A stretch of 64,000 nucleotides of DNA from Candidatus Gastranaerophilales bacterium (GTDB lineage Bacteria; Cyanobacteriota; Vampirovibrionia; Gastranaerophilales; Gastranaerophilaceae): assembly GCA_028693235.1 (NCBI GenBank), contig JAQUVW010000004.1, forward strand, positions 186,001-250,000, given 5' to 3'. The notes under the pieces are model-generated. The model ran no database searches. It was not told the DNA's origin and saw only the letters and a list, made by a program, of their open reading frames with translations. This document shows, in pieces, positions 2,874 through 50,715 of the stretch. Positions within the stretch are counted from its first letter, which is position 1. Every line of letters starts with the position of its first letter. Position numbers and translations under genes: made by a program.

Positions 2874-3773
2874 ATGGAAGCAACTATAACAACAAGAGGC
2901 AAAAAAAGAGCAGCATTTTTGTCTATTGTTTCTAATACAACATTAATTATATTGAAATTTATAGCAGGCTATATTTCAGGCTCAATAAGTATTATATCAG
3001 AAGCCATTCACTCGTTAAGTGACTTGTTGGCTTCATTTTTGGCATTTTTCTCTGTTGTAAAATCAAGTGCTCCCCCGGACGCTGACCACCAATTCGGACA
3101 CGGAAAATACGAAGATTTTTCAGGATTAATAGAAGGCACTTTGATAATCCTTGCATCTTTTTACATAGTATTCGAAGCTGTGAAAAAAATATTGAACCCG
3201 ACTGAATTTGCTCTTGATACCAATATCGCAATTGCGGTAATGCTTTTTGCAGCTGTTTTGAACTTTTTTATAAGTATGTATATATTTCGAGTCGCAAAGA
3301 AAACCGATTCCATAGCTCTTTTTGCCGATGCAGAGCACCTTAGAACCGATGTTTATTCATCATTAGCCGTTTTTGCAGGATTGTTAATAATAAAAATCAC
3401 AGGAATTGCTATTCTTGACCCAATCATTGCGATAATAGTTGCAGTTCTTATTTTAAACGCAGGTTTTAACATTTGCAAAAAAGCCTCTAACAACTTATTG
3501 GACGGAACTTTGCCCCTTGAAGAAAACAAGATAATTATGGATATTTTAGAAGATTACGCAATCAGCAGAAATGTCCATTTCAAAAATGTCAAAACGAGAA
3601 AATCAGGAATAAACAGAGAAGTCGAACTCACATTATTGGTTAACGCTGAAAAAACCATAAAAGAAGGTCACCATTATTGTGATGAAATCGAAAAAAATAT
3701 CGAAGAAAAACTTGGAAATACCTCTTTTTTAATACATTTAGAGCCTTTTGTCGAAAATCATTGTATAAAATAA
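2874..3773 (+). CDS. Cation diffusion facilitator (CDF) family metal efflux transporter
   Basis: At 299 aa this is a typical CDF proton-coupled exporter of zinc, iron or related divalent metals. Six membrane segments are followed by a C-terminal cytoplasmic domain (about residues 210-299). TM2 carries H-x3-D (AIHSLSDLL, H46/D50) and TM5 carries H-x3-D (AEHLRTDVYSS); together these form the transport metal site. HQFGHGKYED is the usual loop after TM2. The His-bearing site fits zinc-type specificity. It begins 12 nt after the FliT-like gene with AAGAGGCACTCC upstream, so it may ride on the flagellar operon without functional connection. Confidence 0.92.
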   Translation: MEATITTRGKKRAAFLSIVSNTTLIILKFIAGYISGSISIISEAIHSLSDLLASFLAFFSVVKSSAPPDADHQFGHGKYEDFSGLIEGTLIILASFYIVFEAVKKILNPTEFALDTNIAIAVMLFAAVLNFFISMYIFRVAKKTDSIALFADAEHLRTDVYSSLAVFAGLLIIKITGIAILDPIIAIIVAVLILNAGFNICKKASNNLLDGTLPLEENKIIMDILEDYAISRNVHFKNVKTRKSGINREVELTLLVNAEKTIKEGHHYCDEIEKNIEEKLGNTSFLIHLEPFVENHCIK

Positions 3774-24276: not shown

Positions 24277-27200
24277 TTACTCAATGGTAAAATCAGGAGC
24301 TCCGAACATACCTTCAATTTCTTCTAAGATAGCAGAAGGTTTGCGAGCATTGTTCTTTTGAGCAGCTCTTCTTTGAGCTTCTTTATCCTTTTCTTCTGAC
24401 GCATTTGTCAAATGGTAATAACCTGTACCTGCAGGTATTAATCTACCGATGATAACGTTTTCTTTCAATCCTCTTAAAAGATCACGTTTGCCATCAACAG
24501 CAGCCTCAGTCAAGATTCTTGTTGTTTCTTGGAAAGAAGCAGCAGAGATGAAACTTTCAGTATTCAAACTTGCTTTTGTTATACCAAGCAATACAGCTTC
24601 GTATGTAGCAGGTTGACCTTCAGCTTCAATAGCCAACTTATTTTCTTCTTCAACAATTTTCAAATCAAGGAATTCGCCTGGGAGCAATTTTGTATCACCT
24701 GATTCAACAATTTTGACTTTCTTAGTCATTTGCTTAACGATAACTTCGACATGCTTATCAGCGATTTCAACGCCTTGAGAACGATATACACGTTGAACTT
24801 CATCAACCAAATATTGTTGAGCAGCTGACGCTCCGTTCAATCTGATGACATCATGAGGGTTCAACGGACCACTTGTTAAAGGTTGTCCGGCTGTAACCTC
24901 TTGCCCGTTAGCAACGATGATTGTAGAATCGATAGAAAATTTAATTTCGTATTTTCCATTGTCATTTACAATAAACAATCTAGGAACATCATCTTCGATT
25001 TCAATATGTGCGACACCGTCGATTTCAGCAAGAATAGCACAATCTTTAGGCTTTCTACCTTCAAGCAATTCTTCAACTCTCGGAAGACCTTGAACGATAT
25101 CACCAGTTTTTTGTCTTTCAAATACCAATGTAGCCAAGAAATCACCACGTAGAACCAATGAACCATTGTTTACTTGAAGCATAGTTCCGGGGCTAATCAA
25201 ATATGGGCGGCCTGTTCTTATTGTGACTGACGCCTTATCAACAGCAACAACCATACCTGAAATATCAGATTGTTCACCAGATTCAGAAAGTACAGAATCC
25301 ATTTTGATAAATTGTCCGACTTCAACAATCGGTTTAGTTTTTGTTGAAATTGTTTCTTCATAGTTGTCAGAGATTAGAAGCAATCTTCTAAGGTCTTGAG
25401 CTGCACCCTTAATGCTTGCAACACCATCATTTACAGCCAAAACTTGAGTTTTAGCAACAGGAGTTTTTGCATCAATTATTTGTCCGTCTTGAACCAACAA
25501 TTCAGTTTGCATTGAAGCTTTGGTCTTAGATGAACCTTCGATTTCTCTTCTTACAATCAATGTTTCAAGAACAACAACTTTTAAGTTATTATCCTCATCC
25601 AATTCAACCATACCTTTTAAGTGACTCAAGAAGCCTTGCATTTGAAGGACCAAGCTTGTTCTTGTAAGAACTGCACCATCCAAGTTTCTTACTCTTGCAC
25701 CATCTTTGAATTGCAATTGAGTAACTGGAACAATGTCAATTGATTCATCAGTTGTGTTGAAATCAATAGAAACATCTTTTGGTTGAACATCAAATTTTTG
25801 AACAGGTCTTACTAAAATTTGGATAGGTTTATTTGAAATTTCTTCTTCATCAATAGTAGAAACATCAATATCTTCATCTAGATCATCAATTTCCATATTG
25901 TCATTATCTGAATCCAAAATAGTCACAATTGATAACTCTTTCGCTTTAACTTTAGGAGCGATTTGAGTACCGGCTTCAACAATCTCACCTTCATCGACTT
26001 TTAAATCGTTGATGTTTGACAATGTATAAACTTCGCCTGGTCTGATTACAACTTCGTGAATAATGTCATTGAATTCTTTTATTTCAACAATACCGTCAAT
26101 GTGAGAATATAAATCCTTAACAATTTCGGTACCGGCTGTTACAAAAGTACCGGATTCAACCATTTTCAAAGCTGAATCTTTATTCAACTGATGTATTTCA
26201 TCAGGAATAAAAATTACTTCGCCGGGTTTTGTTACGATTTGATTTTCATCAACTTCAACGCCGTTGTATCTAATTTCACCACTTGAAGCAACACTGTTTT
26301 CTTCATCGACAAGTTCTGCAATAATCATACCGTTTTCCACTGTTGTATCAACTGGAGATTTAACGATATATTTTTCGCCTGTAGCTTCAACTGTCCATAA
26401 TTGTTCTTTTTTTGTATTTTCAAATACTGCGTTAGATGGCGTGATTGAAGCAATGACAATAGTTAATTCTTTACCTTTAACTATTTTTTTGATTTTTTTG
26501 CCTTCGAATTTAATTTCTTCAACAATTAAATTATCACCAACTCTAACTTCACCACCGTGTTCAGAAACGGTCATAATTTCGGCTAATTTTTCACCTGTTT
26601 TAATTTTTTGAGAATCTTCAACCAAGATTTTAGCACCACCCGGAAGATTATAAACGTCGCCGCCTAAAACCCAAATTATACCATTTTTATTGGCAGTTCT
26701 TGAAATATTACCTTGACGATCTTTCTTTTCATCTGCGATGAAGTCTTGGAATACAACTTCACCACCCAAATCAGTCGTAATATCTTTTGTAGCTTTTTCT
26801 GTTAAACGACTACCGTCACCTTGACTTGTAGGTTCAAAATCAGCTAACTTATCACCTTTTTTAACATTAAGTCCTTTGCTGATATGCAAAATAGCACCTG
26901 CAGGAATGTGGTATTTATAAGTCTTTTTAGCACCTTTCAATTCAATATCAGATTCTTGAAGACAAACTTGTACATCATCACCATGACGTGTTCTCAATTC
27001 TTTAAAAGCAATTTTAGATGTAATTTCACCATCTTCATCAGCAATAATTTGCTTCATAGCACCTGAGCCTTTGAATACACCGCCGGTGTGGAAAGTTCTC
27101 ATTGTAAGTTGAGTTCCGGGTTCACCGATTGATTGAGCAGCGATAATACCAATTGCTTCACCGACATCAACCATTTTTTGAGTTGTAAGAGCCCAACCGT

Positions 27201-28113
27201 AACATTTTTGACAAATTCCATATTCAAGCTCACAAGTTAAAGGTGAACGAACTAATAATTCTTTAAGATTTAAAGGCTCGACTTTTTTAACATCCATACG
27301 ATCTAAGGTTGTACCTTTAGCAACAATAACATTACCTTCAGCATCTTTTATGTCTTCAGCAATTGTTCTACCTAAAAGTCTGTCTGTTAAAGGAGCAACT
27401 ATTTTTTCACCGTCTGAAATAGCTGACATTTTGATAGCTCTATCTGTACCACAGTCTATATCTCTAATGATAACATCTTGAGCAACGTCGACTAAACGTC
27501 TTGTTAAATATCCTGAATCGGCTGTTTTCAACGCTGTATCTACAAGACCTTTACGAGCTCCGTATGAAGAAATGATATATTCAGTAACCGATAACCCTTC
27601 TTTAAAGTTTGATTTAATAGGTAAGTCGATGATTTGACCTTGTGCATCAGCCATCAAACCTCTCATACCAACCAATTGTGATACTTGAGATAAGTTACCT
27701 CTCGCTCCGGAGAACGCCATCATATATACAGGGTTCAATCTATCAAAGTTTTCAACTACACTTTCAGTCAACTTAGCTGTTGTTTCAGACCAAGTATCGA
27801 TGACCTTTGTATATCTTTCAACTTCAGTAATCTCACCTTTTAAATATCTGTGTGTTGATTTTTCAATTTCTTTTTCAGCTTGAGCAAGCAAATCTTTTTT
27901 TACAGCAGGAACAGATAAGTCAGTAATAGTAATAGTTGTACCCGCTTTTGTAGCAAATCTGTATCCCAAGTTCTTCAAACTGTTTGCCAAGTCAGCAGTT
28001 TTGGCACCGCCGAACTCAAGATATACTTGAGCAAGCAAGTTCTTCAACGAACCTTTATTCATCTGCTTGTTAATGAAGTCAAATGATTTCTTTTTGTGAA
28101 TTAATGTATCCAT
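24277..28113 (-). CDS. rpoC2: RNA polymerase subunit beta'' (RpoC2), cyanobacterial-type split
   Basis: This 1278-aa protein is the C-terminal part of bacterial beta'. It begins in the region of [20 protein letters not shown] and [10 protein letters not shown], the position where cyanobacterial RpoC2 starts. [12 protein letters not shown] and [15 protein letters not shown] belong to the bridge helix/trigger region, and a zinc site is visible ([13 protein letters not shown]). After [14 protein letters not shown] and the shared RTRHG there is a very long insert (about residues 350-940) in the trigger loop, as in cyanobacterial SI3. Family motifs resume at [11 protein letters not shown] and the [11 protein letters not shown] region. 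AAAGGTGAG stands before the ATG. Confidence 0.97.
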
Positions 28114-28155
28114 GTTATATTCTCACCTTTAATTTTTATAAAATGTACCTTCCCT

Positions 28156-28204
28156 CTGTAGTAGCCTACAGGACGACGAAATGCAGGGGTAACCCTGCTT
28201 CGTC
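28156..28204. promoter_or_regulatory. Two tandem hairpins between rpoC1 and rpoC2
   Basis: The 91-nt gap between rpoC1 and rpoC2 holds two perfect or near-perfect hairpins. CTGTAG-TAGC-CTACAG occupies 28156-28171. GACGAA(at)GCAGGG-GTAA-CCCTGCTTCGTC occupies 28175-28204, ending at the rpoC1 stop. They are GC-rich for this genome. No T run follows, so they look more like processing or stabilising elements than terminators. Confidence 0.7.
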
Positions 28205-29920
28205 TTATGATGAAAGAACTGCTTTTCTAACAGTTTCGTTAAAGATAATTCTACCAACAGTAGTTGTAAGTCTTTTGCCTTTATCATCACGAACTGTAAT
28301 TTTTTCGTGAAGAGTAATGACACCAGCCTCTAACGCAGCAATTGCGTCTTCAAAGCTGTAGAAGAATCTGTTTCCCGGTCCTTCATCTTCTTTTAGAATG
28401 GTTAGATAATACATACCTAAGACCATATCTTGAGAAGGTGTAATGATTGGCTTACCTGTAGCAGGTGCTAAAATGTTATTGGTTGCGAGCATTAGCATTC
28501 TTGCTTCAGTTTGAGCTTCAATTGATAAAGGAACGTGAACCGCCATTTGGTCACCGTCGAAGTCGGCGTTGAACGCAGTACATACGAGCGGGTGAAGTTG
28601 AATAGCTCTACCTTCAACCAATTTAGGTTCAAATGCTTGAATACCCAATCTGTGAAGTGTAGGAGCACGGTTTAGCATAACCGGATGTCCATCAATTACT
28701 TCTTCTAAAATATCCCAAACCACAGGTTCTGATCTTTCGATTTTCTTCTTAGCGGATTTGATATTTTGAACAAGTCCTCTTTCGATTAATTTATTAACAA
28801 CGAAAGGTTTAAACAATTCTATAGCCATTTCTTTAGGCAAACCACATTGGTTAAGTTGCAAGCTAGGACCGACAACGATTACTGAACGACCTGAATAGTC
28901 AACACGTTTACCAAGTAAGTTTTGACGGAAACGACCTTGTTTACCTTCAATGATATTTGATAATGATTTCAACGGTCTGTTGTTTGGTCCAACGACAGTT
29001 CTACCACGTCTTCCGTTGTCAATTAGAGCATCAACGGCTTCTTGAAGCATACGTTTTTCGTTTCTAACAATAATTTCAGGAGCACCCATTTCGAGCAATC
29101 TCAACAAACGGTTGTTTCTGTTGATAACACGTCTATATAAATCATTCAAATCTGATGTTGCAAATCTGCCACCGTCTAATTGAACCATAGGTCTTAAATC
29201 AGGAGGTGTAACAGGAAGTACATCCATTATCATCCAAGTTGGAGATGTATTACTTGCAATTAAAGATTCTACAAGTCTTAATCTCTTAATTAATTTTGCT
29301 TTTCTTTGAACAGAACCACCAGCACTGTCAAGTTCAGCTTTTATGTTTTCTAACAATTCAGGCATTGTAATTTCAGAAAGCAAATCTTTAATAGCTTCAG
29401 CACCAATGCCTACTTTTAAAGCACTTTCTTCATTTTCCAACATAAAGTCTTCATATTCTTCTTCAGAAAGAAGTTGAAGCTTCTTAAATCCTGAATCAGC
29501 TGGTTCAATTACAACATAATTGTTGAAATAAATAACTTGTTCAAGGTCTTTCAAAGACATATCCAAAAGCAAACCAAGGTAAGATGGAATACCTTTTAAG
29601 AACCAAATATGAGATACAGGAGCCGCTAATTTGATATGCCCCATTCTGTGACGACGAACCTTTGAATCAGTAACTTCTACGCCACAACGTTCACAAATGA
29701 TACCTTTATGTCTTACTCTTTTATATTTACCGCAATAGCATTCCCAGTCCTTTGTAGGTCCAAAAATTCTTTCGCAGAACAAACCGTCTCTTTCCGGTTT
29801 TAATGTTCTATAGTTGATTGTTTCAGGTTTTGATACTTCACCATACGACCATTTCAGAATACGCTCAGGAGAAGCGATACTGATTCGTATATAGTCAAAA
29901 TAATCTATACTTGTAGACAA
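28205..29920 (-). CDS. rpoC1: RNA polymerase subunit gamma (RpoC1), cyanobacterial-type split
   Basis: This 571-aa protein is the N-terminal part of beta'. It has the zinc-binding region [20 protein letters not shown], the clamp, [20 protein letters not shown], the catalytic magnesium motif NADFDGDQM, and ends just after [13 protein letters not shown]. In unsplit beta' the chain would continue; here a TAA stops it and rpoC2 follows with its own ribosome site. It is a little shorter than typical cyanobacterial RpoC1 (about 620 aa). GGAGATAAAAATTG precedes the ATG. It follows rpoB by 29 nt. Confidence 0.97.
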
Positions 29921-41783: not shown

Positions 41784-42398
41784 TTACCGAAGCTCTTCGC
41801 CTTCACCAGACCCACCATCTGAATCAGACCAATCACAACTAGAATCATCAGTATTGCCTTTAATCAAGCATTTTGCGGGTCCATGGGGTTTGAAATAATT
41901 ATCTGCTTTTCCGCCCCATTCCACTTCAAAATAATAACCTCCGTCTTTGGGATCATCAGGGGATTTTGTTGACAAATTTGGTTTTTTATCACCGTTTACA
42001 TCTACAGAAACGATATCTCCATATTCATTTATTGTAAAAGCCATACCGTCTGCAGTATAAAAAGTAAGATCACCGCTATCCCCATCACCACTGACTGTGC
42101 AGGCTTTACTGTTTGATGGAGTTGTAGATGACACTATATTCATTCTTTTTGAATAGAAATTTTCAAAAATGCAGTCAGCATCATTACCGCAATCATCAGC
42201 AACATCTTCTACTCTTTTGCCCGTCAAAGCATAATGGGTTTGTACCGCTTGTGATAATACAGAATACGCCTTTTTTACACCTGTTTTATATTCTTCTTTA
42301 TTTGTATTATTGAGCAGTGCAGGTATCGTCAACGCAGCTATAACACCGATAATCACAAGTGTTATTAACACTTCCGCTAATGTAAATGCTTTTTTCAT
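41784..42398 (-). CDS. Prepilin-like protein with type IV N-terminal methylation motif (copy 1)
   Basis: This 204-aa protein has a short leader MKKA and the prepilin peptidase motif A-FTLAEVLITLVIIG, followed by the hydrophobic helix ending in LTIPALL. The mature domain is Cys- and Asp-rich (ADDCGNDADC, CLIKGN, SSCDW) with DG/DVNGDKKPN-type stretches, which may form disulfides or a calcium-like loop. This style is used by pilins and type II secretion pseudopilins. GAAAGG precedes the ATG. It is downstream of a paralogue (42497). Confidence 0.9.
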   Translation of the reverse strand: MKKAFTLAEVLITLVIIGVIAALTIPALLNNTNKEEYKTGVKKAYSVLSQAVQTHYALTGKRVEDVADDCGNDADCIFENFYSKRMNIVSSTTPSNSKACTVSGDGDSGDLTFYTADGMAFTINEYGDIVSVDVNGDKKPNLSTKSPDDPKDGGYYFEVEWGGKADNYFKPHGPAKCLIKGNTDDSSCDWSDSDGGSGEGEELR

Positions 42399-42496
42399 AA
42401 TTAACCTTTCATAATTTAAAGAACAATAACATCATATTTTATGAAATTTTCAAATAAAATATTCTTATGATATTTAACAAGAAAGAAATGATAAAC

Positions 42497-43039
42497 TTAT
42501 CCCCTATTCCATTCACAAGAACAAGAAAAATCATATAAAGCCCAAGCTTCAGATTGAGGCATATCGTCAGCGACATACCTTTCAGGCTTCATAAAAATAA
42601 CATCTTGTGGCTCATCTTGAGAATTTGCAGCTATATTAGGCCCCTTGCTTCCATTTACATCAACCCAAATTCCTTGAGTAGATATCCCCCATAGCATGCC
42701 GTCAGTAGTGCTGAAACCTTCCAGTGAATAATCAGAACTCCCCTGAGCTTTAGATGCATCGAATTCAAGACTAACATCTCTATCTGAAACCTGCATCATT
42801 GACTCTAATTCCGATGTCCTTTCATCTGGTGTCATATCCATTAAATCATCAAAAGTAACACCATCTTTGGCATAAGCCATTGAAGTAGCGTTTGAAATTG
42901 TAGATAAAGCTTTTAGAGCAGCAGTTTTATATTCTTGTTGTTGCGTATTTTGTAACAATGCAGGTATCGTCAACGCAGCTATAACACCGATTATAACTAA
43001 TGTAATCAATACTTCCGCTAATGTAAATGCTTTTTTCAT
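42497..43039 (-). CDS. Prepilin-like protein with type IV N-terminal methylation motif (copy 2)
   Basis: This 180-aa protein shares its first 29 residues exactly with copy 1 (MKKAFTLAEVLITLVIIG and on to PALL), and the DNA over the leader is nearly identical. The C-terminal domains differ, apart from a shared DVNG-x-K-PN segment. AGGTAAA precedes the ATG. The 98-nt gap to copy 1 has no clear terminator, so the two may be co-expressed minor pilins or pseudopilins. No assembly ATPase or prepilin peptidase is in the window. Confidence 0.9.
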   Translation of the reverse strand: MKKAFTLAEVLITLVIIGVIAALTIPALLQNTQQQEYKTAALKALSTISNATSMAYAKDGVTFDDLMDMTPDERTSELESMMQVSDRDVSLEFDASKAQGSSDYSLEGFSTTDGMLWGISTQGIWVDVNGSKGPNIAANSQDEPQDVIFMKPERYVADDMPQSEAWALYDFSCSCEWNRG

Positions 43040-43258: not shown

Positions 43259-44146
43259 CTAATACATTTTTTCAATATTTTTAGATTTTTTACGCCAGTC
43301 TTTTATGACCTTAACCTGCAAATCAAGATATACTTTTTTTCCTGCAGATTCTTCAATTTCGACTCTTGCTTCTGAGCCGATTTTTTTAAGCATAGAACCT
43401 TTTTTGCCGATTATTATACCTTTTTGACTATCGTGTTCAACAATTATTTGTGCAAAAATGCGGTCTATTTTTGGTTTTTCTTCGTATTTATCAATAATTA
43501 CGGCAACTGAATGAGGGATTTCGTCGTGAGTATTCAAAAGAATTTTTTCCCTGATTAACTCCCGAGCTATATTTCTCATAGTTTCATCAGTAAGCTCGTC
43601 AGAGTCATAAATTGGAGCACCTTCCGGAAGCTTGCGAACAATATTATCAATTAGGGTATCAAAATTGCGACCGGTTAACGCTGAAACTTTAACACAAGGG
43701 TAATTTTCATTGAATAAAGTTTTATAAGAGAGCAAAATTTCTTCCCTCTTCAAAGCATCTTTGATTAAATCCATTTTGTTCAACACAATTATCAAGGGGG
43801 TTTTTAAGTCTTTAAGCAAATTATCAACAATCCACCTGTCACCACGCCCGGCAGGAGTAGAGCCATCAACAACAAACAAAAGCATATCAACGTCAGGCAA
43901 AGTTTGTTTAGCCTCGTCAACAAGGCATTCGCCGAGTTTATCTAAAGGTTTGTGTACTCCAGGTGTATCAACGAAAACGATTTGAGCATCATCATTAGTC
44001 AAAATACCTTTAATTCTGCGACGTGTTGTTTGAGCTTTCGAAGTCGCAATAGCAATTTTTTGACCGACCATTCGGTTTAAAATTGTTGATTTACCAACAT
44101 TCGGTCGTCCGACAATTGCAACAAAACCTGATTTATAATTTTTCAT
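43259..44146 (-). CDS. era: Ribosome-assembly GTPase Era
   Basis: This 295-aa GTPase binds the 3' end of 16S rRNA during 30S maturation. G1 GRPNVGKST, switch region TSKAQTTRRRIKGI, G3 DTPGVHKP, G4 NKMD, and the C-terminal KH domain with GIIIGKKGSMLKKIG are intact. Its first 14 nt overlap the end of the upstream CDF-CorC gene. CorC-type genes next to era are common in bacteria, which makes the unusual fusion upstream more meaningful. Confidence 0.97.
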   Translation of the reverse strand: MKNYKSGFVAIVGRPNVGKSTILNRMVGQKIAIATSKAQTTRRRIKGILTNDDAQIVFVDTPGVHKPLDKLGECLVDEAKQTLPDVDMLLFVVDGSTPAGRGDRWIVDNLLKDLKTPLIIVLNKMDLIKDALKREEILLSYKTLFNENYPCVKVSALTGRNFDTLIDNIVRKLPEGAPIYDSDELTDETMRNIARELIREKILLNTHDEIPHSVAVIIDKYEEKPKIDRIFAQIIVEHDSQKGIIIGKKGSMLKKIGSEARVEIEESAGKKVYLDLQVKVIKDWRKKSKNIEKMY

Positions 44147-45986
44147 TTTCTTCGTTTTCTTCTTTTTCTAAAGCATCAATAAATGGGGTATTTTTGTGCA
44201 TTATAACACGAGAAATTCTTCTTCCGTCCAGTTCGATAACTTTATATGTAATATTTCTATCTTCAACAATATTGCCGATTTCAGGTTCTTTACCAAGCAG
44301 CCCGAAAACGTATCCGCCAAGTGTTTGGAAATCTTCATTAGGGATATCAAGGTCAAATCTTTCATTCATATCATCAATATCGATTTGGCTTGATACATTC
44401 ATTGTTTTGTCATCAATTTTTATAATTTCAGAAACAGGAGCTTCATCAAATTCATCGTATATTTCGCCGACAATTTCCTCTAATATATCTTCAACAGTTA
44501 CTATACCGGCGATACCACCATGTTCATCAACGACTGCAGCGATTTGAGTTTTAGAAGAAGTAAAATCACTCAATAAATCACTGATAAATTTATTTTCGGG
44601 AATAATAGGTATTTCACGAGCGAGTTCTTTGATGGCAAAATCATCAGCAGCATTATCTCTAACCGCTTTCAAAACATCTTTTGCATTGACAACGCCAATG
44701 ATATTATCGACATTGTCTTCGTATATCGGAATACGAGTATGCCCAGAGTCAATAATAATATCCATTAACTCAAGCAAAGAAGATTCTGCGTCGACAAAAA
44801 CTATCTTAGGACGAGGCACCATAACTTCTTTGACAACTGTTTGGGAGAAAGAATAGAAATTAGAAAGCATTTTAGCTTCATGGTTATCAATTAGGGAGAT
44901 ATCTTCACCTTCTTGGATAATTTTATCAAACTTATCTTCCCAATTTTCTTCAGCGTCATCAGCTTGAATTTCAATGGCAACATGGGATATATTTTTTACA
45001 TTATTTCTAATTTTACGTTCGAGCATATCAGCGATATCATCTGCATCTTTAACCTGAATTTCAGGATCAACTTCAATTGTCATATTAACAATCAATCCAG
45101 AAGTGCCCATATCCATAGTTTTAAGTTCATGCACGCAAGCTATTCCGTGCATAGTGCTTGCGACTCTTCTTATGACATCTTCAATTTGAGGTTCAGCGGA
45201 TTGTCCTGTTAAAAAATTAACATTATTTTTAAGCATATAAATTGCTAAGAAAAACAAAATGCAACCGATTAAAATAGAAGCTATAGCATCTGGTAAAAAC
45301 ACAAATTCATCAGGTAATAAAAACTTCGAAACAGAAAGCCCGATAAAAGCGATTATTACGCCTAAAAGAGCTGAGGAATCTTCATACCAAACAAATTTTG
45401 TTGTAGGACTTTTGATATGTTTAATCTGCTTCACAGAATTCATGTAATCTTTAATTTTATTGTTTGTGATATCGACATTAGCTTCAACGAGAACTGCATT
45501 CATCGCACTATTAACAGCCCAAGCTTCAAAACACATGCTTACGAGCAAAGTCAAAGCCATAAGCGGGTAATTTTTCAACAAATCAGCGGGGTTATGAAGG
45601 CTTGAATTCAAAATTTTATCAACACCACTTCCAATAGCGATTGCAGTACCTGCAAGCATCAAAATTGAAGCAAAAAGAGCCCATATATTAGCCTCCAAAC
45701 CATACCCGAAGGGATGCATTTCGTCAGCAGGTTTTGAGCCACGTTTGAGTCCAATCATCAAACAAATACTGTTGAATGAATCGACAAACGAGTGGGCCGC
45801 TTCAGATAACAAAGCGGAACTTCCTGAAAAAAGCCAACAGACTAATTTAATTGTAGCAATGCCGATATTTGCGATAAAAGCTCTTATAATAGCTAATTGT
45901 TTAGAACGTACGGCCGGACAAAAGTCCTTGTTATCATTACCCTGCGGAACGGAAAGAGTTTCCGAGCTGCTACTGTCTGATGTCAT
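44133..45986 (-). CDS. CDF metal transporter fused to CBS pair and CorC/HlyC domain
   Basis: In this 617-aa protein, residues ~30-345 form a CDF transporter of the SLC30A9-like type, with H65-x3-D69 in SEAAHSFVDSFN, HPFGYG (91-96) and a second metal site in YEDSSALLGV (201-210), followed by the cytoplasmic CDF domain. Residues ~370-510 are a CBS pair with the CorC-style entry VVKEVMVPRPKIVFVDA and DEHGGIAGIVTVEDILEEIVG. Residues ~525-600 are the CorC_HlyC transporter-associated domain. CorC/CNNM proteins normally have a DUF21 membrane domain; here a CDF replaces it. There is no frameshift or internal stop. It overlaps era. Confidence 0.9.
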   Translation of the reverse strand: MTSDSSSSETLSVPQGNDNKDFCPAVRSKQLAIIRAFIANIGIATIKLVCWLFSGSSALLSEAAHSFVDSFNSICLMIGLKRGSKPADEMHPFGYGLEANIWALFASILMLAGTAIAIGSGVDKILNSSLHNPADLLKNYPLMALTLLVSMCFEAWAVNSAMNAVLVEANVDITNNKIKDYMNSVKQIKHIKSPTTKFVWYEDSSALLGVIIAFIGLSVSKFLLPDEFVFLPDAIASILIGCILFFLAIYMLKNNVNFLTGQSAEPQIEDVIRRVASTMHGIACVHELKTMDMGTSGLIVNMTIEVDPEIQVKDADDIADMLERKIRNNVKNISHVAIEIQADDAEENWEDKFDKIIQEGEDISLIDNHEAKMLSNFYSFSQTVVKEVMVPRPKIVFVDAESSLLELMDIIIDSGHTRIPIYEDNVDNIIGVVNAKDVLKAVRDNAADDFAIKELAREIPIIPENKFISDLLSDFTSSKTQIAAVVDEHGGIAGIVTVEDILEEIVGEIYDEFDEAPVSEIIKIDDKTMNVSSQIDIDDMNERFDLDIPNEDFQTLGGYVFGLLGKEPEIGNIVEDRNITYKVIELDGRRISRVIMHKNTPFIDALEKEENEENEKL

Positions 45987-49262: not shown

Positions 49263-49613
49263 ATGAACGAAAATTGCGACAAATACGAAGCATACTTTAC
49301 CTTTGCCAGCGAAGAAGATTACAAAAAGCACCTCATTGAATGCAACGCTTGCAAAGATGAATTTAATTTGCAAACTAAAATTTCATCATTAGTAAAAGAA
49401 GTAGCAGATGAGTACAAAAAGCGAGAACGCAAAAAGCTAAATACCTACAAAATGGCTTCTTGCTTGGCTATACTACTAATCACATTCTCTTGTTTAGCGA
49501 CATTCACTTATTTAAACTATACGCAAAATAATAATTATGATAATTATCAAGAAACAAATCTTCTATACTCAATAGGTGCAAATATCGATGAATACGGGCT
49601 TATACAAAATTAG
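49263..49613 (+). CDS. Probable membrane anti-sigma factor
   Basis: In this 116-aa protein, the N-terminal domain carries a zinc-binding-like H-x3-C-x2-C (KHLIECNACKDEF), the core of ZAS anti-sigma domains. One TM follows at about residues 66-87, then a short extracytoplasmic tail. Such proteins hold an ECF sigma factor inactive at the membrane. The sigma gene starts 11 nt downstream. The order anti-sigma first is the reverse of the usual arrangement. Confidence 0.72.
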   Translation: MNENCDKYEAYFTFASEEDYKKHLIECNACKDEFNLQTKISSLVKEVADEYKKRERKKLNTYKMASCLAILLITFSCLATFTYLNYTQNNNYDNYQETNLLYSIGANIDEYGLIQN

Positions 49614-49624
49614 TCAGGATTAAT

Positions 49625-50116
49625 GTGAAAGAAATAATAGAAAATTATAAGAACGGAATAAAACTCATAATTAAAAATATGACCGGTAAATACAACGAAG
49701 ATATTGAGCAAGAAGTATATATCAAAACTTGGACCCACTTGGACAAATACAAAGAAACAGGGAAATTCAAAAGTTGGATAAATACAATTACGGCTAATAC
49801 TTGTCGGGATTATCTAAAATCTTCTGTATTCAAAAAATCCCAACAAACAGACTCCTCAGAAGATAATTTGCACAAACTTTCAGACAATGCGATTTCTTTT
49901 GACGAAAAAATCATAGCCAAACAACGCCAAGAAGAGATTATAAAAGCTATTAACTCGCTAAAACCGAATTTCAAAGAAGTTATAGTAATGTATGAAATCT
50001 ATAACCTAGATTACGAAGAAATATCAAAAAGAATTAAAAAGCCAGTAGGCACAGTGAAATCGAGGCTTTTCAATGCAAGAAAAGAACTCGGTGTAATACT
50101 AAAAGATTTATTATAA
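49625..50116 (+). CDS. ECF-type RNA polymerase sigma factor
   Basis: This 163-aa sigma-70 family protein has region 2 (DIEQEVYIKTWTHLDKYK, then FKSWINTITANTCRDYL) and region 4 (LKPNFKEVIVMYEIYNLDYE, then VGTVKSRLFNARKEL) only. The start is GTG at 49625 with CAGGAT 4-5 nt upstream. It directs polymerase to a small regulon, probably including its own operon and the LTXXQ protein downstream. The linker between regions is short, as in ECF factors. Confidence 0.92.
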   Translation: MKEIIENYKNGIKLIIKNMTGKYNEDIEQEVYIKTWTHLDKYKETGKFKSWINTITANTCRDYLKSSVFKKSQQTDSSEDNLHKLSDNAISFDEKIIAKQRQEEIIKAINSLKPNFKEVIVMYEIYNLDYEEISKRIKKPVGTVKSRLFNARKELGVILKDLL

Positions 50117-50136
50117 AAAATCAGGAAGGAGTCTAA

Positions 50137-50715
50137 ATGAAAAAGACTACACTATGTCAAATTGCACTTGCTATCGCATTAGTAGGGACATTTGCAGGAA
50201 TTTCAGAAGCAGCTCAATGTCAAGGAAATCCACGACCCAACCCGCCAATGAATGACAGAATGGGACCACCTCCAATGAGAGCCAATCTTACGCCCGAGCA
50301 AAAAGCAAAAATGAAAAAAGAACATGCAAAACAAAAAGCAAAATTCGACTCAAGGCTGAACTTAACAGCAGAACAAAAAGCAAAAATCGAACAAAATCGT
50401 ATCGAGTCACAAAAGAAAATTAAACCTCTAATCGACCAAATGAAAGCGAAACGTGAAGCTATTCATAAAATTCAAGAATCGAATATGTCTTTGGCTGAAA
50501 AGGACAAGAAAATAGCCCCATTAAAAGAAGATATAAAAAATTTAAGGAAAGAAGCTCATCAATACAGAGAAGAAAACCGTAAAGCATTTGAAAGCGTGCT
50601 AACGGACAAACAGAAAAAAGAACTTGCTAAAATGAAAAAAGAACACGAAAACAAAATGCAAAAAAACATGAAAAATCACAAACCGCCAATGAGTCATACC
50701 CCATACGACAAATAA
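50137..50715 (+). CDS. Spy/CpxP-like periplasmic LTXXQ protein
   Basis: This 192-aa protein has a signal peptide (residues 1-26, cleavage near SEAA) and three LTxxQ-type motifs: LTPEQKAK, LTAEQKAK and LTDKQKKE. The chain is helical, very rich in Lys and Gln, with Met/Pro-rich ends (NPPMNDRMGPPPM). Spy/CpxP/ZraP proteins are stress-induced periplasmic chaperones or metal sensors. The Met- and His-containing ends could bind copper or zinc. It follows the sigma gene by 20 nt (AGGAAGGAG before the ATG), so it is probably a target of that sigma. Confidence 0.8.
   Translation: MKKTTLCQIALAIALVGTFAGISEAAQCQGNPRPNPPMNDRMGPPPMRANLTPEQKAKMKKEHAKQKAKFDSRLNLTAEQKAKIEQNRIESQKKIKPLIDQMKAKREAIHKIQESNMSLAEKDKKIAPLKEDIKNLRKEAHQYREENRKAFESVLTDKQKKELAKMKKEHENKMQKNMKNHKPPMSHTPYDK

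Follow-up and report, generated by a model that had tools for sequence, protein, structure and literature searches.

CNNM/CorB/CorC proteins have a DUF21 membrane domain that is linked by an acidic helical bundle to a CBS pair, and CBS pairs bind adenine nucleotides; the mechanism of these proteins, including the control of transport by the CBS pair, is unsettled in the field. In MtCorB the ATP contacts include T207, F233, S234, R235, I311, T313 and D316, and its R235L mutant is homologous to a human CNNM4 mutant that is unable to bind ATP (PMC8242095). The CorC domain of Salmonella is found with several partners, in CNNM-CBS-CorC proteins (PaeA, CorB), with TerC (MgpA, YegH), with a Na/H-exchanger-RCK protein (CvrA) and as soluble CorC; proteins carrying it counter excess Mg2+, and the authors of that study consider the CorC domain, probably together with the CBS pair, to be regulatory (PMC12421838). 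Among CDF transporters, V/IxxxD in TM5 instead of HxxxD, in association with HxxxD in TM2, is reported as a distinctive feature of ZnT9/SLC30A9 (PMC11335279). Here we describe a gene in which a CDF transporter and a CBS-CorC module are fused, an architecture for which no published description was found in the literature searched.

Architecture of the fusion gene

The gene lies in the window, the whole 64,000-nucleotide stretch of DNA that was analysed, and is a single open reading frame with an ATG start and no internal stops, as seen in the ORF list and its translation (Table 1). Pfam matches were obtained for Cation_efflux (PF01545; E 2e-29, 103 bits against a cut-off of 26.6), ZT_dimer (PF16916; E 2e-10, above the curated cut-off), CBS in two stretches (E 4e-16, best at residues 385-443, above the curated cut-off) and CorC_HlyC (E 1e-17, 64.3 bits against a cut-off of 27). 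The CNNM/DUF21 family (PF01595) is absent from the protein and from the families reported for the 44 aligned members. Matches to solved CorC/CorB structures start at residue 350 and take in the acidic helical bundle, and thus the cut is clean, joining a whole CDF with its own dimerisation domain to a full CNNM cytosolic half. A preliminary description of this DNA had proposed a CDF transporter fused to an intact CBS-CorC module, and it is borne out on both counts, since bundle, CBS pair and CorC domain are complete in one frame and all four Pfam families are present in 44 of the 44 members.

Table 1. Position of the fusion gene, its domains and the adjoining era gene in the window.
Feature	Position	Strand	Evidence
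CDF-CBS-CorC fusion gene, 617 aa	44133..45986	-	ORF, Pfam, relatives
Cation_efflux (CDF) membrane domain, residues 33-257, six predicted long helices; site residues H65, D69, V199, E202, D203	45216..45890	-	Pfam, AlphaFold model, alignment
ZT_dimer, the CDF cytosolic dimerisation domain, residues 267-340	44967..45188	-	Pfam
Joint and CNNM-type acidic helical bundle, residues 346-384	44835..44951	-	Matches to solved CorC/CorB, alignment
CBS pair, residues 385-~505; ATP-contact equivalents H416, T417, R418, I495, T497, D500	44472..44834	-	Pfam, alignment
CorC_HlyC domain, residues 523-598	44193..44420	-	Pfam
era GTPase, 3' of the fusion, 14 bp overlap	43259..44146	-	ORF list

The AlphaFold model of the fusion has a mean pLDDT of 84 and six long membrane helices; its pTM is low at 0.55 and it came without a pairwise error, so that it does not define how the CBS pair and the CDF pack together. 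Foldseek recovered both folds, with matches to CorC/MtCorB (4hg0, 7m1t) and to ZnT3, ZnT7 and YiiP, and the best structural match was 4hg0, the soluble CorC/YbeX. The joint, residues 335-352, is of identical length in 44 of 44 members, and its near-invariant W349 is kept in 98% of them. Its pN/pS of 0.09 was the lowest among the five regions tested, with synonymous sites near saturation.

In the CDF half, the TM2 motif is H65xxxD69 and the TM5 motif V199xxE202D203, i.e. VxxxD, and H65, D69, V199, E202 and D203 are invariant in the alignment of the 44 fusion members. The A-site ligands on TM2 and TM5 are present as H65, D69 and D203; where zinc CDFs have the TM5 His, the fusion has V199, a substitution shared with ZnT9. 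The conserved site that follows has D88 in all members and H91 in 42 of 44, and a Tyr (36 members) or His (8 members) at position 95. The CDF is therefore SLC30A9-like by motif in every member, as had been suggested, whereas the accompanying statement that both metal sites are there holds only in part: the ZnT9-type pattern is kept, but its TM5 half is VxxxD and not HxxxD. No His or Cys column conserved in at least 38 of the 44 rows was found in the CDF cytosolic domain, and so a YiiP-like zinc-sensing site is probably absent from it, the comparison with YiiP being drawn from knowledge of the family and not from a residue alignment.

Most standalone CDFs of the examined genomes carry HxxxD in TM5, and their alignment to the fusion is weak; the nearest standalone sequences found were plasmid-borne bacterial VxxxD CDFs, 29-33% identical to the CDF half, which argues that this half was not derived from the host's other examined CDFs. 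In a CDF tree built without any SLC30A9 sequence, the fusion CDF halves join the bacterial VxxxD CDFs at 100/100 support. A second, standalone CDF (Cation_efflux and ZT_dimer) is encoded in the window at 2874-3773 (+), and Cation_efflux matches number three genome-wide.

For the CBS pair, the equivalents of MtCorB T207, F233, S234, R235, I311, T313 and D316 are V390, H416, T417, R418, I495, T497 and D500. T497 and D500 are each found in 44 of 44 members, position 417 is Thr or Ser in all of them, and R418 is Arg in 40 and Lys in the other four. The adenine-stacking Phe233 of MtCorB is His in the fusion (H416 in 42/44), and position 390, the equivalent of Thr207, is Val or Ile. Since most equivalents of the MtCorB ATP contacts are kept, the CBS pair of the fusion likely contains a nucleotide-binding site, here predicted by alignment, with Mg-ATP as a first guess for the ligand.

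Distribution, inheritance and genomic context

The host lineage consists of non-photosynthetic relatives of cyanobacteria. In a sample of 240 genomes of the window's class, the full-length fusion was found in one frame in 45. Carriers in the window's own family (f1) belong to five genera (g1, g14, g18, g21 and g24) and are 63-67% identical, and families f4, f9 and f10 carry versions that are 37-45% identical. A fusion with 53% identity is also found in f11, a family of the same order. The fusion was also present on 25 GTDB contigs, mostly titled Candidatus Gastranaerophilales and a few 'Bacterium', a few of which run off the contig end; this pattern scan reached close relatives only. No copy was seen in the sampled genomes of the phylum's other classes, and the range of the fusion is known from one phylum. 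A domain check of the 44 aligned relatives found the four Pfam domains in one frame in each of them; these relatives belong to five families of a single class.

Full-length, stop-free relatives in 45 of 240 genomes and on the 25 contigs exclude both a chance join and an error of assembly, and the assembly join of two genes that the preliminary description had allowed for is ruled out by the one frame and the constant joint. Against 41 CNNMs, the CBS-CorC halves group as a single clade (support 100/100); in the CDF tree a branch separates the CDF halves (11 fusion rows only) from the 25 other CDFs, and the distances in one half and in the other have a correlation of 0.94. These data support, as the simplest reading of the sequences, that one fusion event would have been inherited as a unit.

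Several candidates were rejected. An apparent TGA recoding in the f11 relatives (G426, G437) was a natural stop that the alignment had overrun; the 589-aa frame of G256 that matched CBS-CorC had no CDF match by tblastn; and the two plasmid records covering at least 80% of the query contained adjacent, separate genes. Adjoining genes of both types were seen at L226:2899-5580 on an Azospirillum ramasamyi plasmid, a single case in which a VxxxD (ZnT9-type) CDF adjoins a hemolysin-family (CNNM-type) gene on the same strand, unfused, and in L227 (NZ_CP030101.1), a 2.9-Mb Listeria record classed as a plasmid in PLSDB but probably a chromosome, with a CDF gene beside a CNNM-type gene.

The Gastranaerophilaceae CNNMs at loci L064-L093 and L126-L185 divide into a core set, of which several adjoin fliA, and two clades termed accessory (X and Y). 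We scored the presence of CNNM by PF01595 over the cut-off in the same 240 genomes. The fusion and the lineage's core CNNM/CorC (DUF21-CBS-CorC) are mutually exclusive, an observation that is new here. Among the 45 fusion genomes, 26 are without any CNNM, the window's genome having no PF01595 match genome-wide, whereas 192 of the 195 non-fusion genomes have one, the three exceptions being 66-71% complete. Of the CNNMs in the other 19 fusion genomes, 17 of the 18 from f1 were placeable on the tree and all fall in the accessory clades, 14 in X and 3 in Y. The same two clades take in eight CNNMs from additional fusion genomes, both f11 genomes among them; the CNNM of the f10 genome G073 was too divergent for placement and that of G205 was split across contigs. 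Among the non-fusion f1 genomes, a part had their CNNM sequences read; all non-fusion genomes seen in clades X and Y have a second CNNM. In the 18 CNNM-less fusion genomes tested, the window's genome included, the fusion is the sole CorC_HlyC protein. A residual CNNM was considered for G156, G229, G418 and G205 and rejected, as their weak PF01595 matches resemble ZIP-type transporters by eye and not decayed CNNMs; similar matches below the cut-off occur in G150 and G174. It seems that the fusion has replaced the core CNNM, i.e. that it stands in for a magnesium-handling transporter in the genomes that carry it; as these genomes are concentrated in certain genera and families, however, the number of independent events behind the exclusion may be small.

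The gene upstream of the fusion is a divergent alaS. Directly 3' lies era in g1, g21 and most GTDB contigs, with gpsA following the fusion in g18 and other neighbours in g14 and g24, and at most f4 and f10 loci (L094-L111) the fusion is just downstream of the flagellar export genes fliP-fliR-flhB-flhA. The ordinary CNNM is beside fliA in ten of the examined f1 loci. The remark that a normal corC often lies beside era cannot be generalised to this lineage, since the neighbours of the fusion vary among genera and families and the ordinary CNNM adjoins fliA in those ten loci. Co-transcription of era with the fusion is likely, but era is probably not a functional part of the system, as the adjacency is not conserved. 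No metal riboswitch was found upstream in the window or in 12 related loci, and a promoter and terminator scan of the region gave nothing above chance. Elsewhere in the window, two adjacent pilin-like proteins (N_methyl) with the same N-terminal leader are encoded between pyrG and era at 41784-43039 (-). At 49263-50715 (+), the gene for an ECF-type sigma factor has a possible anti-sigma gene upstream and is followed by one for an LTXXQ (CpxP-like) protein, which matches Metal_resist weakly; together they are a possible envelope or metal stress operon. At 24277-29920 (-), beta-prime C-terminal domains of RNA polymerase are found in a 1278-aa frame that lies beside a 571-aa frame (the Pfam scan covered the first only), possibly a split rpoC as in cyanobacteria.

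Gating, substrate and rival readings

Our best reading is that the CorC slot has been taken over by a CDF exporter gated by (Mg-)ATP, in which the substrate and the gating are the parts that we infer. We assign a probability of roughly 0.6 to the fusion being a homodimeric CDF exporter of divalent metal, powered by the ion gradient as other CDFs are, with its activity set by the fused CBS-CorC module. The CDF and CBS-CorC halves are both C2 dimers in known structures, and stacking of the CBS dimer under the CDF dimer is therefore a reasonable arrangement. The CBS pair would dimerise on Mg-ATP beneath the CDF dimerisation domain, nucleotide/Mg2+ occupancy would let the CDF cytosolic domains close so that transport runs, and loss of nucleotide or Mg2+ would open the CBS dimer and slow export. 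Such CNNM-like control would take the place of the metal-sensing cytosolic domain of YiiP, and the fusion would fill the cellular role of the core CorC, the relief of excess divalent cation. Gating of metal export by Mg-ATP is plausible from the residues kept in the CBS pair; family membership makes a d-block metal (Zn or Mn) the probable substrate, and Mg2+ is possible as the fusion stands in for a Mg2+ exporter family. Against the exporter with a CBS-CorC gate, the contact that apo CNNM makes between CBS and the helix-turn-helix of DUF21 cannot exist as such in the fusion, and the changes of Phe233 to His and Thr207 to Val/Ile also weigh against it. That a DUF21-type Mg2+ exporter was ancestrally replaced by a CDF pump inheriting its Mg-ATP sensor, with transition-metal export set directly by cytosolic Mg-ATP, is a more tentative proposal, for which we would give slightly less than even chances; if true, energy state and metal export are linked in one polypeptide, and no such description was found among CDF proteins.

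The substrate is also where the nearest rival differs, in which the CDF core has changed substrate to export Mg2+ (or Mg2+/Co2+) in place of the DUF21 pore and Mg-ATP is the feedback signal. The mutual exclusion with the core CNNM, the lack of another CorC_HlyC protein in each fusion-only genome checked and the Val at the TM5 His of zinc CDFs all speak for it, but we know of no CDF for Mg2+ export. Since VxxxD is moreover the pattern of the zinc transporter ZnT9 (PMC11335279) and of standalone bacterial CDFs, we regard a Mg2+ exporter as unlikely, at about one chance in four. Still less probable is that the CBS-CorC half keeps a separate job, e.g. the one that soluble YbeX/CorC has in connection with ribosomes and cation stress, with the CDF mainly as a partner or anchor and no allosteric gating: a soluble CorC without membrane domain does exist, of unknown biochemical function (PMC12421838), and era adjoins the fusion in several genera, but that adjacency is not conserved, the metal-site residues are invariant, and the joint is constant in length in all members and under strong purifying selection. 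An assembly join or annotation artefact of two genes, for which no supporting point was found, deserves next to no credence given one frame across different assemblies and five families.

Comparison with known systems

The natural swap of the membrane domain, together with the missing core DUF21 protein, provides a clean test of CBS-CorC as a portable gate and bears on the cellular job of the CorC slot, and CDF transporters gain a candidate nucleotide-sensing control. With the CNNM/CorB/CorC proteins (MtCorB, TpCorC, MpfA, Salmonella CorB/PaeA), the fusion shares the acidic helical bundle, a CBS pair with most ATP-site residues and CorC_HlyC in the same order, but an entire CDF, dimerisation domain included, takes the place of DUF21. 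The soluble CorC/YbeX (4hg0) has the CBS pair and CorC_HlyC but no membrane domain. SLC30A9/ZnT9-like CDFs have the same fold with HxxxD in TM2 and VxxxD in TM5, whereas the fusion has an extra tail of ~270 residues with the CBS pair and CorC domain. YiiP/FieF and other HD-HD or DD-HD CDFs share the fold and the cytosolic dimerisation domain, while the fusion is without the TM5 His and has no cytosolic His/Cys column in at least 38 of 44 rows. The TerC-type CorC proteins (Salmonella MgpA/YoaE and YegH) likewise carry the CorC module on a non-DUF21 membrane domain, which is TerC in theirs and CDF in the fusion, and set a precedent for the exchange of modules (PMC12421838). The CorC module was thus already known on membrane domains of the TerC and CNNM types, and the CDF is a new partner that fits the Salmonella pattern.
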